This document shows, piece by piece, positions 6,269-32,306 of a stretch of 32,306 bases of DNA (positions within the stretch are counted from its first letter, which is position 1; every line of letters starts with the position of its first letter). This DNA is from an uncultured Bacilli bacterium (lineage in GTDB: Bacteria > Bacillota_I > Bacilli_A > RF39 > UBA660). The stretch covers positions 1-32,306 of the forward strand of contig CALWAK010000008.1 in NCBI GenBank assembly GCA_944373095.1, given 5' to 3'. A program made the translations under genes and the position numbers. The notes under the pieces are model-generated. The model saw nothing but the letters and a program-made list of their open reading frames with translations. It did not search any database and was not told the DNA's origin.

Positions 6269-7116
6269 TGATTTTAAATGTTTATAAAGAACCTTTTATG
6301 ACATCTCGAGATGTAGTAAATATTATATCAAAACATTTTAAAACAAAAAAAGTTGGTCATACAGGGACATTAGATCCAATTGCATCTGGTGTCCTTGTTA
6401 TTTGTACTAAGGAAGATACTAAACTTGTAGAAGTATTAACTAGTAGTAGTAAAGAGTATATAGCAACAATAAAATTAGGTATTAAAACAGATACAATGGA
6501 TATTACTGGAAAAGTTATTGAAGAAAAAAATTATGATTTTACTAAAGATAAACTTACTATTATTTTAAAAAGTTTTTTAGGTAAAAGTATTCAAACAGTT
6601 CCTAAATATTCTGCAGTTAAAATAAATGGTAAAAAATTATATGAATATGCTAGAAATAATATTGAAATCGAATTGCCAAAAAGAAATATTGAAATTTATG
6701 ATATAGAACTATTAGAATATAATAATGATATTATTAAATTTAGAGTAGTTGTATCTAAAGGAACTTATATAAGAAGTTTAATTGATGACATATGTACTAA
6801 ACTTAATACAGTTGGAACAATGCAAGATTTAATAAGAACTAAACAAGGTAATTTTTCTATTGTAGATTCTAATAAATTAGATGATATAGTAAATGATAAA
6901 TATACTTTAATCGATTATAAAACTTTATTTAAAGATTATAGGATAATAGAATTAGATTATAATGATTATATAAAGGTATTTAATGGTTGTAAAATGCATT
7001 TTGATTGTAATGAAGAAAAAGTTGTTTTAACATATAAAAATAATTTTGTTGCGATATATAAATTAGATAATGGTATTTATAGAATGCTTAAATATTTGAT
7101 AAATAGGAATAAATAG
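6268..7116 (+). CDS. truB: tRNA pseudouridine(55) synthase TruB
   Basis: TruB isomerises U55 in the T-loop of tRNAs. The catalytic motif GHTGTLDPIASGVL holds the nucleophile Asp36. KEPFMTSRDVVN at the N-terminus, VPKYSAVKINGKKLYEYAR and VSKGTYIRSLIDDIC are the other family motifs. The C-terminal ~60 residues are divergent, AT-biased sequence where a PUA-like domain may sit. 282 residues is slightly short of the family. Last gene of the rimP operon, followed by a strong terminator. The ribF gene that often follows is not here. Confidence 0.95.
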   Translation: MILNVYKEPFMTSRDVVNIISKHFKTKKVGHTGTLDPIASGVLVICTKEDTKLVEVLTSSSKEYIATIKLGIKTDTMDITGKVIEEKNYDFTKDKLTIILKSFLGKSIQTVPKYSAVKINGKKLYEYARNNIEIELPKRNIEIYDIELLEYNNDIIKFRVVVSKGTYIRSLIDDICTKLNTVGTMQDLIRTKQGNFSIVDSNKLDDIVNDKYTLIDYKTLFKDYRIIELDYNDYIKVFNGCKMHFDCNEEKVVLTYKNNFVAIYKLDNGIYRMLKYLINRNK

Positions 7117-7120
7117 TCTA

Positions 7121-7148
7121 AAATTGCTTGACGAAGCAATTTTTTTTA
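7121..7148 (+). terminator. Terminator of rimP-truB operon
   Basis: A 9-bp stem AAATTGCTT (7121-7129) / AAGCAATTT (7134-7142) with a GACG loop runs into a T-run. The -35 box of the next promoter lies inside this hairpin. Confidence 0.88.
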
Positions 7149-29161: not shown

Positions 29162-29212
29162 AGCATTAAAAAACATGCTTCTTTATGGTAAACTTTTAAT
29201 AAGGTGATGAAT

Positions 29213-30472
29213 ATGAAAGAATCTAAAATGCGAATTGCAGATAAATTACTTGAAAAAAAATTAAAAGGAAAAGGTGCAGTACTCATACAAGGAGTTAAAT
29301 GGTGTGGGAAGACAACACCTGCAAAACATTTTGCCAATAGCCTCTTATATATAGCTAATCCTGAAGATGTGAACCAAAATATTTCATTGGCGGATATAAA
29401 TCCTAGTATTTTACTAGCTGGAAAAACTCCTAGATTAATAGACGAATGGCAAATTGCTCCTAAGTTATGGGATGCATTTAGATTCGAAGTGGATCATCGA
29501 GGAGTTGAAGGCTAATTTATTTTAACTGGATCATCAGTTCCTGCTAATATGCAAAATGTTTTTCATACTGCGACTGTTGATTTAGTTGGCTTTTAATGCA
29601 ACCAATGAGTTTATATGAGTCTGGTGAATCAACAGGAGAAGTTAGTTTATTGAGTTTATTTGATAGTTCAAAAAAAATAAGTGGTATTAATAAATATAAT
29701 TTAGAAGATATAGCATATTTATGTTGTAGAGATGGTTGACCAAGAAGTATAGATATGGATAAAGAGATTCTTTAGATCAAGCATATGATTATTATGAAGA
29801 GTTTTAATTCTGATATTTCAAGAGTAGATAATGTAACTAGAAATCCAAAAAAGAGCAAAACACTTAATGAGAAGTTATGCTAGAAATATTGGAAGTCAAG
29901 CATCTAATGAAACATTAAGAAATGATATGATTTCTAATGATTTAAATACATTAGATACTGATACAGTATTATCTTATATAAATACTTTAAAAAAATGAAG
30001 ATGCAGTAGCATGGAATCCTAATTTAAGAAGTAAAACTGCAATAAGAACATCTGATACAAGATACTTTGTAGCCCCATCAAAAGAGTGGCCTCCCTAGGT
30101 TTAGGGCCAAATGATTTAATTAATGATTTACATACTTTTGGGTTAATATTTGAATCATTATGTATAAGAGATTTAAGAGTTTATGCCGATAGTATTAATG
30201 GTAGTGTATATCACTATAAAGATGCATCTAATCTAGAATGTGATGCAGTTATTTATTTGAGAAATGGTTCTTATGGCTTAGTAGAAATAAAATTAGGTGG
30301 AGATAACTTAATAAATGAAGCAGCAAATAACTTAATTAAATTAAAAAATAAAATAGATACTGATAAAATGAATAATCCAGCATTTTTAGTGATACTAGTA
30401 GCATCAGGCAAATATGCTTATAAAAGAGAAGATAATATCTTAGTAGTACCAATAACTTGTTTAAAACCATAA
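29213..30472 (+). pseudogene. Decayed full-length DUF4143-type ATPase
   Basis: The conserved protein can be followed across three frames. The N-terminus has GAVLIQGVKWCGKTT (Walker A, Thr/Lys present), LIDEWQIAPKLWDAFRFEVDHRG (Walker B) and ILTGSS. The middle has PMSLYESGESTGEVSL, ISRVDNVTRNP, MRSYARNIGSQ, AWNPNLRSKTAIRTSDTRYF. The C-terminus has GLGPNDLINDL, LCIRDLRVYAD, VYHY, LECDAVIYLRNGSYGLVEIKLGG (PD-(D/E)XK-like). It is broken by in-frame stops at 29513 (probably Gln to TAA) and 29737 (probably Trp to TGA) and by about six frameshifts (near 29590, 29765, 29803, 29850, 29993, 30085). The start ATG at 29213 keeps its AAGGTG site, so decay is fairly recent. Neighbouring genes are intact, which argues against sequencing error. 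Confidence 0.88.
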
Positions 30473-30527: not shown

Positions 30528-32018
30528 ATGAAAAAATATATATTAATATTTATTACTTCTTTAATAATAAGTATATCTTTAATAAGTTTAACTATTATAG
30601 ATAAGAAGAAATTAATTGAAACTCCATTAGATGAAGAATATATGGCGTTCTTTGTAGATGGAAAAGAAACAGATACAATTCCTGAAAAAGGTAATTATTA
30701 TGTATCAACAGTTTGTGATAAGGGTGCTAATGCTATCTGGAATTATGATAACTGGGCAATAACAATATATAATGCTACACAAACAGGCACAAGATGTAGT
30801 GTCACATTTACTACAAGATATCAAGACAGTACTGGTGCAACAGCACCTGAGTTATATGCTGGTTTAATACCAATCACATATGATGATTCAAATAACATAT
30901 TAGTAGCAAATGTATCATCTGAATGGTATAACTATAATAATCATGAGTGGGCCAATGCCATTTTAATCGATCAAAACAATTCCTCAATAAAGGCGAAATA
31001 CATAAATGAAAATGGCTCATTTAAAAGTGGTACAACAGTAAGTATATCAGATGTTCTACAAATGTACGTATGGATACCAAGATATAAGTATAAATTATTT
31101 AATGCCGAAGGTAATACTGGTACAACCGCTCAAATGATCGAAGTAGAATTTGAAAGTAATGATACTGCAAAATCAACTGGTTCATCAAATGGAGAGTGGT
31201 TAACTCATCCAGCATTCACATTTGGTACAACCGAATTAAATGGAATATGGGTAGGAAAATTTGAATCAAGTGGTTCAACTAGTGATGTAACTATAATACC
31301 AAATGTATCAAGTTTAAGAAGTCAAACAGTAAGTGCAATGTTTAATGCATCCCGTGCGATTGAGTCAACTACTAAACTAGGTTTATCTGCATCAGAAGTA
31401 GATACCCACATGATGAAGAATATGGAATGGGGAGCAGTAGCATACCTAACCAGTTCAAAATACGGAATATATAAAGATGCATCAACTTGCATGAATGCTG
31501 ATTGCGAAGTATGGACAAATCCAAATAGTAACTATACCACTGGTTGCGCTGGTGATAAAGTATCCGCAACATCTACAACATCTTGTAATCAATGGAATAC
31601 TTCAACTGGCGTCAATGCTTCAACAACAGGTACTATTTATGGTATCTATGATATGAGTGGTGGTGCATGGGAGTACGTCATGGGTAACATGACTGATTCA
31701 TCCGGTGCCTTTTACCCACGTTATTTTGGTTTATCTCAACCTGATTCCAAATATTATGATTCGTACACATATGGAACCAGTTACAATGATTATTCAAGAG
31801 GACATTTAGGAGATGCTACTAAAGAAGTCATTGCCAATAGTGGAAGTTACCTAGCCTGGAATAACGATTACGCGGACTTTGTCAATTCGTCTAGTCCGTG
31901 GTTCTACCGCGGTGGCTTCTGCGGCAATGGTAGCCTTGCGGGGGTCTTCAGCTTCGCCTACTACAGTGGTGGTGCGAATTCCAGCACTTCGTGGCGGGTT
32001 GTGTTGTCCTCCGAATAG
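30528..32018 (+). CDS. Anchored surface protein with C-type-lectin/FGE-like, probably DGR-diversified C-terminus
   Basis: 496 residues. A short basic start and one TM or signal-anchor (about 4-24) lead into a small cysteine-containing beta module (about 40-100, FFVDGKETDTIPEKGNYYV). A long Ser/Thr/Asn-rich exported region with YVWIPRYKYKL and HPAFTFGTTELNGIWVGKFE follows. The C-terminal domain carries MMKNMEWGAVAYL, the FGE/C-type-lectin signature GIYDMSGGAWEY (372-383) and the closing RGG...AGVF...WRVVL pattern (461-494). From about residue 445 base composition switches to GC-rich and adenine-poor. The putative variable positions (464-486) are all NNC or NNT codons. This is how targets of diversity-generating retroelements look. 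Likely role: surface ligand binding (inference). No retroelement enzyme is in the window. Confidence 0.85.
   Translation: MKKYILIFITSLIISISLISLTIIDKKKLIETPLDEEYMAFFVDGKETDTIPEKGNYYVSTVCDKGANAIWNYDNWAITIYNATQTGTRCSVTFTTRYQDSTGATAPELYAGLIPITYDDSNNILVANVSSEWYNYNNHEWANAILIDQNNSSIKAKYINENGSFKSGTTVSISDVLQMYVWIPRYKYKLFNAEGNTGTTAQMIEVEFESNDTAKSTGSSNGEWLTHPAFTFGTTELNGIWVGKFESSGSTSDVTIIPNVSSLRSQTVSAMFNASRAIESTTKLGLSASEVDTHMMKNMEWGAVAYLTSSKYGIYKDASTCMNADCEVWTNPNSNYTTGCAGDKVSATSTTSCNQWNTSTGVNASTTGTIYGIYDMSGGAWEYVMGNMTDSSGAFYPRYFGLSQPDSKYYDSYTYGTSYNDYSRGHLGDATKEVIANSGSYLAWNNDYADFVNSSSPWFYRGGFCGNGSLAGVFSFAYYSGGANSSTSWRVVLSSE
31860..32018 (+). other. Candidate DGR variable region (VR)
   Basis: By hand count, 31908-32009 is about 61% G+C with 11 adenines in 102 bases, against about one quarter G+C in the window. 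Framework codons are AGG/GCG/CGG/GTG-type, not used elsewhere in the gene. Positions such as 464-466, 470, 475, 477-482 and 485-486 carry F, C, G, L, S, A, Y and others in codons ending in C or T. This is what adenine-specific mutagenesis of AAC/AAT template codons gives. The constant 3' end TCGTGGCGGGTTGTGTTGTC would be the initiation-of-mutagenic-homing segment. The template repeat was looked for in the window and not found. Confidence 0.6.
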
Positions 32019-32035
32019 CTGTGAAACAGCTATTC
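32013..32035. repeat. Hairpin over the stop codon, DGR cruciform-like
   Basis: GAATAGCTGT (32013-32022) and ACAGCTATTC (32026-32035) form a perfect 10-bp stem with loop GAA. The TAG stop lies in the 5' arm. Hairpin/cruciform structures just 3' of the variable region are known to promote DGR homing. No T-run follows, so it is not a standard terminator. Confidence 0.7.
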
Positions 32036-32121
32036 TGCACATTTGCACAGAAATACCCATTTGACGAGGAAAAAGAATAAAATGTTAAGAAAAAAATAAT
32101 TTACGAGAAGAAAACCAAGAC

Positions 32122-32153: not shown

Positions 32154-32306
32154 ACAGGTTTGGAAATATGTTTGGCTTCTTTAGATGTAAATGGTAAAAT
32201 AAAATGTAGGAAATCGGTAATTTAACTTGTGGTTCTTTGTCAAATAGTGTTGGTGACAATAAATTTGATAAATGAATTAATATAAATGGGTGATTTTAAA
32301 TCACTC
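32154..32306. other. Non-coding stretch with gene debris, right end of window
   Basis: No complete gene is seen after the hairpin. Short overlapping open stretches read like eroded coding sequence: one frame gives ASLDVNGKIKCRKSVI before a stop, and another gives EIGNLTCGSLSNSVGDNKF and then a stop at 32272. Bases 32288-32306 can form a terminator-like hairpin (GGGTGAT/ATCACTC) that is cut off by the window edge. Confidence 0.35.

Follow-up and report, generated by a model that had tools for sequence, protein, structure and literature searches.

Variable region of a multi-target diversity-generating retroelement in a predicted membrane-anchored protein gene of an uncultured Bacilli bacterium

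Diversity-generating retroelements (DGRs) have been described in phages and in bacterial chromosomes. In the DGR of Bordetella phage BPP-1 (mtd, avd, brt), the target requires a hairpin or cruciform located behind the variable region (VR) (PMC3240598). The chromosomal DGRs of Treponema denticola and Legionella have surface lipoproteins as targets (PMC4891356). More than one template repeat (TR) per DGR has already been reported (PMC6642488), and cellular targets with a membrane anchor are frequent (PMC8144416). The system reported here, with several templates and membrane-anchored cellular targets, belongs to this known kind, and the presence of two templates was rejected as a novelty since DGRs with several TRs have been published (PMC6642488). 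The only element that may be new, and that is observed in part, is a reverse transcriptase (RT) gene apparently interrupted by sequence from a group II intron.

The window, i.e. the whole stretch of DNA analyzed (32,306 nucleotides), is the entire contig C8 of a draft genome of 1.08 Mb (72 contigs, 89.9% complete). Its last gene, an open reading frame (ORF) of 496 aa, is the DGR target (Table 1). When positions 31840-32080 were searched against the genome, contigs C46 and C1 each yielded two additional copies, four in total. One of the C46 copies, TR1 (6998-7138, minus strand), is located directly downstream from an RT gene and outside any plausible gene. TR1 and the window VR differ at 23 of 146 positions, comprising 22 of the 41 template adenines and a single one of the 105 other bases (p = 7 × 10–14). 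The earlier note had read the end of the gene as a DGR variable region and had proposed a search for a near-identical repeat differing at adenines and for a DGR-type RT; all three elements, namely the template, the RT, and the adenine-confined differences, were found in the same genome. The interval proposed in that note (31860-32018) was close, the actual VR being slightly shorter (Table 1).

Table 1. Features of the right end of the window.
Feature	Position	Strand	Basis
DGR target gene, 496 aa, FGE/C-type-lectin-like C-terminal domain	30528..32018	+	ORF, anchor helix, model, fold matches
N-terminal transmembrane anchor (predicted), residues 6-24	30543..30599	+	Kyte-Doolittle hydrophobicity
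Variable region (VR), core about 31870-32009, residual identity to TR1 up to 32015	31870..32015	+	Alignment to TR1 of contig C46
3' VR stretch without change from TR1 (TCGTGGCGGGTTGTGTTGTCC), expected IMH position	31989..32009	+	TR1/VR alignment
Inverted repeat GAATAGCTGT (GAA) ACAGCTATTC, 10-bp stem, 3-nt loop, overlaps stop codon	32013..32035	+	
Contig-end repeat, also ending C39, C19, C5, and C1 (74-75 identical bases)	32230..32305	.	

Two compositional claims made from the sequence of the gene were borne out by measurement. The switch from AT-rich to G+C-rich, adenine-poor DNA corresponds to 57.7% G+C and 11.7% A at positions 31872-32008, versus 33.7% G+C and 37.1% A in the upstream part of the ORF. 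The variable codons do have the form NNC or NNT, as every changed VR codon ends in C or T. The changed codons derive from AAC, AAT, or TAC codons of the template, with the single exception of AAA to TAC at position 31905. From position 31872 onward, TR1 contains 19 adenine-containing codons, of which one is able to give a stop codon, and the number of protein sequences reachable from this template was computed to be about 10^21.

Comparison with a second species of the same genus, G002, led to the same conclusion. The orthologous target gene of G002 displays 77% identity in its upstream part and the same downstream flank, with a different VR. The VRs of the two species differ at 23 of 41 TR-adenine sites and 7 of 105 other sites (p = 4 × 10–10). 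Thus, the comparison suggested for strains, performed here between species, gave differences concentrated at template adenines. TR1 and the window VR have almost no non-adenine differences, whereas the upstream part of the gene shares only 77% identity with the G002 orthologue, a contrast that suggests recent copying. Together, these results indicate that the end of the window gene is almost certainly a DGR variable region rewritten from the C46 template by the C46 RT. Rewriting would proceed by retrohoming, and the DGR may be active at present.

The second C46 copy, TR2, is a tandem template with its own downstream spacer. Of the 14 differences between TR1 and TR2, none falls on a TR1 adenine. 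TR2 fits the two target genes of contig C1 better than TR1 does, with changes at 25 of 40 adenines and 5 of 96 other positions (p = 2 × 10–12). The system is a genuine multi-target DGR with two templates and at least three VR genes. The VRs of the two C1 genes (C1a and C1b; L011, 6212-9611) are identical, and two G002 VRs at different loci (C2 and C27; L046, 2625-4325, and L047, 5335-7047) are nearly identical, being the same over most of their length. Such identity within one genome suggests copying between VRs, or duplication, in addition to retrohoming.

The RT adjoining TR1 was classified as a DGR-type enzyme by profile comparison, the BPP-1 DGR RT (8ub7) matching at 4 × 10–64, against 3 × 10–29 for the highest-ranking group II RT. 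Its best 80 relatives from reference genomes are 47-68% identical and originate from Bacilli, Clostridia, and similar metagenome-assembled genomes. In the operons of relatives, the gene order is MutS-like domain, Avd, and RT, and Avd is present in the G050 and L099 operons. The avd gene anticipated by the earlier note was thus seen in relatives, as well as in the second DGR of the same genome (contig C10), whereas neither avd nor a MutS-like gene was seen beside TR1, because contig C46 terminates within that RT gene. IMG/VR contained no close viral relatives of the C46 RT or template, and among the best-listed phage records RT identity was at most 42%. The Rfam RNA RT-14 (RF02921) was found just downstream from the template repeat in L071 (6759-6889) and L097 (7164-7305), and seems to represent the spacer RNA of both DGRs; further matches were detected in L099 (8989-9147) and, weakly, in L010 (6405-6505). 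Two additional RTs of the genome, on contigs C58 (L012, 1109-2119) and C16 (L013, 5448-6407), have a retron-like appearance.

No naming family was found for the target protein in Pfam or NCBIfam, and the family was named by a fold search. The AlphaFold model (pLDDT 85, alignment of 36 homologues) was compared with solved structures by Foldseek. The first four matches were DGR variable proteins, TaqVP (three chains; 5vf4, 3 × 10–9) and TvpA (2y3c, 3 × 10–4), followed by FGE-type enzymes. The FGE/C-type-lectin fold claimed for the end of the protein is accordingly supported by a predicted model that matches TaqVP and TvpA before all other structures, and this fold is located at the VR-bearing 3' end, the VR forming the last 49 codons of the ORF. 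The protein has one hydrophobic helix, which is N-terminal, with a Kyte-Doolittle value of 2.6 over 19 residues, the best value elsewhere in the protein being 0.75. The target is a membrane-anchored protein, as deduced from this predicted helix; the remainder would be displayed outside the cell, where the C-type-lectin face may bind a ligand. Seventeen of the 36 homologous DGR targets (alignment A3, loci L063-L142) start with a type IV prepilin-like signal, of the form GFTL[IV]EL or AFTLIEL in nine and GITL[IV]AL in eight. These homologues are pilin-like proteins with a DGR-variable C-terminus; the window target is devoid of a prepilin-like signal. Directly upstream from the target gene lies a broken ATPase-type gene (29204-30472; fragments 29204-29515 and 30086-30472), whose homologue in G002 is also broken.

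At its 3' end, the VR contains a stretch identical to TR1 that may be the initiation-of-homing (IMH) sequence, by analogy with BPP-1 (PMC3240598). The inverted repeat that follows is absent behind TR1 in the TR1/VR alignment. Both C1 target genes harbor an inverted repeat at the equivalent place, in which compensated changes preserve the stem (GAATAGTTGC, loop GAA, GCAACTATTC), and perfect stems of at least 7 bp were found in 13 of 36 homologous targets, versus 1.2% of shuffles. The inverted repeat of the window is the counterpart of the hairpin or cruciform of the BPP-1 target.

The window VR gene and the C46 templates are on separate contigs in the draft assembly. In G002, homologues of the right part of the window (to position 29951) and of C46 are contiguous. 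For this reason, the VR gene and the templates probably belong to a single locus, with a repeat and the absent beginning of the RT gene lying in the gap between the contigs; contig C8 itself ends in a 75-bp repeat common to four other contig ends. Mis-binning of C46 was considered and rejected, since C46 and the window show the same divergence from G002 (86.5% and 84-86%, respectively) and are linked by synteny. G002 retains a copy of TR2. In another sister species, G001, two TR1-type templates follow an RT end with 99.5% DNA identity to its C46 counterpart (contig C68; L050, 1-1260), and this cassette occupies a different chromosomal site, next to rnc and smc. Since the RT end and templates are 95-99.5% identical between the two genomes, versus 74-85% for core genes, the cassette has probably moved recently.

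The C46 RT lacks its first approximately 65 residues. In their place stands the 3' end of a group II intron, whose domains V/VI match RF00029 with 33.8 bits (below the gathering score of 40, the match being cut by the contig end). The same 76 bases of intron end contigs C46 and C26, a pattern expected when an assembly is interrupted by a repeat. Nearly all copies of the intron family share the 3' end ..CTACTYRAT followed by T in the exon, and maturase genes are present in related copies from the same bacterial family. A limited literature search found no description of a DGR RT interrupted by a group II intron. In-frame splicing of the RT is plausible, as the boundary falls exactly at the expected codon, homologues read through this point, and the 3' exon agrees in frame and DNA; the 5' exon is missing from the bin. 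Expression of the C46 RT would probably require the intron to be spliced out. We put forward tentatively, as a possibility short of probable, that the RT is made only after self-splicing of the intron from the mRNA, so that one retroelement would reside inside, and gate, the hypermutation enzyme of another.

The main alternative to splicing is truncation of the RT gene, or recombination between intron copies. The DGR would then have been active recently and now be off, with the present VR frozen, following either insertion of the intron with loss of the 5' part or such a recombination. This scenario is a serious one that we nevertheless hold to be somewhat less than probable. It is consistent with the enzyme perhaps not being made at present, as the N-terminal residues are missing in the assembly: the 5' exon was not found there with the N-terminus of the nearest homologue or with the intron 5' end as query. 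The latter search detected contig C51 only, where the intron lies behind a terminator with no RT nearby. This sole other traceable copy in the genome (C51/C26) illustrates the habit of such introns, in light of which a site within a coding sequence is unusual. In G002, moreover, the RT is reduced to a remnant and the VR genes persist. However, the exon begins at precisely the codon and base needed for in-frame splicing, reading TAGGTAAGTATCG immediately after the intron; the nearest homologue reads ..C and then TAGGAAAGTATCG at the same point of the same codon, with identical first bases. The junction is read straight through in 79 of 80 homologous RTs, the remaining one containing a frameshift. 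In addition, the rest of the C46 RT is intact and retains the 99.5% DNA identity to its G001 counterpart, and TR1 and the VR are almost free of non-adenine differences, all of which argues against this scenario. Two further candidates were discarded in this analysis. The L099 RT, the only other one without an in-frame N-terminus, was rejected as a second intron case on account of a frameshift, and the contig-end repeat of C8 was dropped as the intron 5' end since it does not match a full-length intron region.

The same genome contains a second DGR on contig C10 (L014, 5947-8204, minus strand). It is complete, comprising an ORF similar to MutS domain I, TR3 (C10:19660-19788), avd (Pfam bAvd, PHROG Avd), and an RT. 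TR3 follows the adenine rule: the VR at C10:22114-22224 is changed at 14 of 32 adenines and none of 79 other positions, and the VR at C24:2606-2714 at 18 of 32 adenines and 4 of 79 other positions. A complete system obeying this rule might serve the C46 templates in trans through its MutS-like protein, Avd, and RT. We consider this improbable, since the C10 RT is only 34% identical to the C46 RT and TR3 has no sequence match to TR1 or TR2; DGR RTs are moreover believed to be specific to their own structured template RNA. Finally, that the repeats are silent cassettes exchanged by gene conversion without adenine mutagenesis, as in pilin antigenic variation, would account for several near-identical VRs per genome (C1a and C1b, C2 and C27) but is scarcely credible, being refuted by the confinement of mismatches to template adenines, by the untranslated nature of the copies beside the RT, and by the independent adherence of the C10 system to the adenine rule.

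Returning to rewriting of the window VR from TR1, we propose that the TR1 RNA would be copied by the DGR RT with errors at adenines and that the resulting cDNA would replace the 3' end of the target gene (mutagenic retrohoming), TR1 itself remaining unchanged. The recipient would be marked by the invariant 3' stretch of the VR together with the inverted repeat that overlaps the stop codon. The product would be a membrane-anchored protein with a C-type-lectin face rewritten at up to 19 codons, and TR2 would serve the two further target genes on contig C1. An uncultured Bacilli lineage with a small genome would thus use two templates to write membrane-anchored, lectin-like proteins that are hypervariable, and it maintains a second, independent DGR alongside the first. 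Because the cassette is found intact, duplicated, or decayed in sister species, gain, loss, and movement of the DGR can be traced. If the RT intron splices, this locus offers a testable case of one retroelement controlling the mutator enzyme of another.

The locus resembles the BPP-1 DGR in its TR/VR pair with adenine-specific changes, in the position of the VR at the 3' end of a gene encoding a C-type-lectin fold, in the inverted repeat directly behind the VR, and in its RT family. It differs from it by its cellular, membrane-anchored targets, by several VR genes, by two tandem templates downstream from the RT, by the intron sequence cutting the RT, and by a GAA triloop in place of the GRNA tetraloop of the phage. 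Like the DGRs of Treponema denticola and Legionella, it is chromosomal and diversifies several surface-type proteins (PMC4891356), and Treponema TvpA is the second protein matched by the fold of the window target. The anchor is an N-terminal helix here and a lipobox there, and the accessory genes are Avd and MutS-like in relatives of the window system and HRDC in these bacteria. In contrast to the multi-template DGRs previously described (PMC6642488), the two TRs here have separate spacers and separate sets of VRs, told apart by non-adenine differences. The intron shares domains V/VI and the conserved 3' end with the maturase-encoding, terminator-associated group II introns of the family, but the C46 copy is located within the coding sequence of a DGR RT, whereas the other traceable copy is located behind a terminator.
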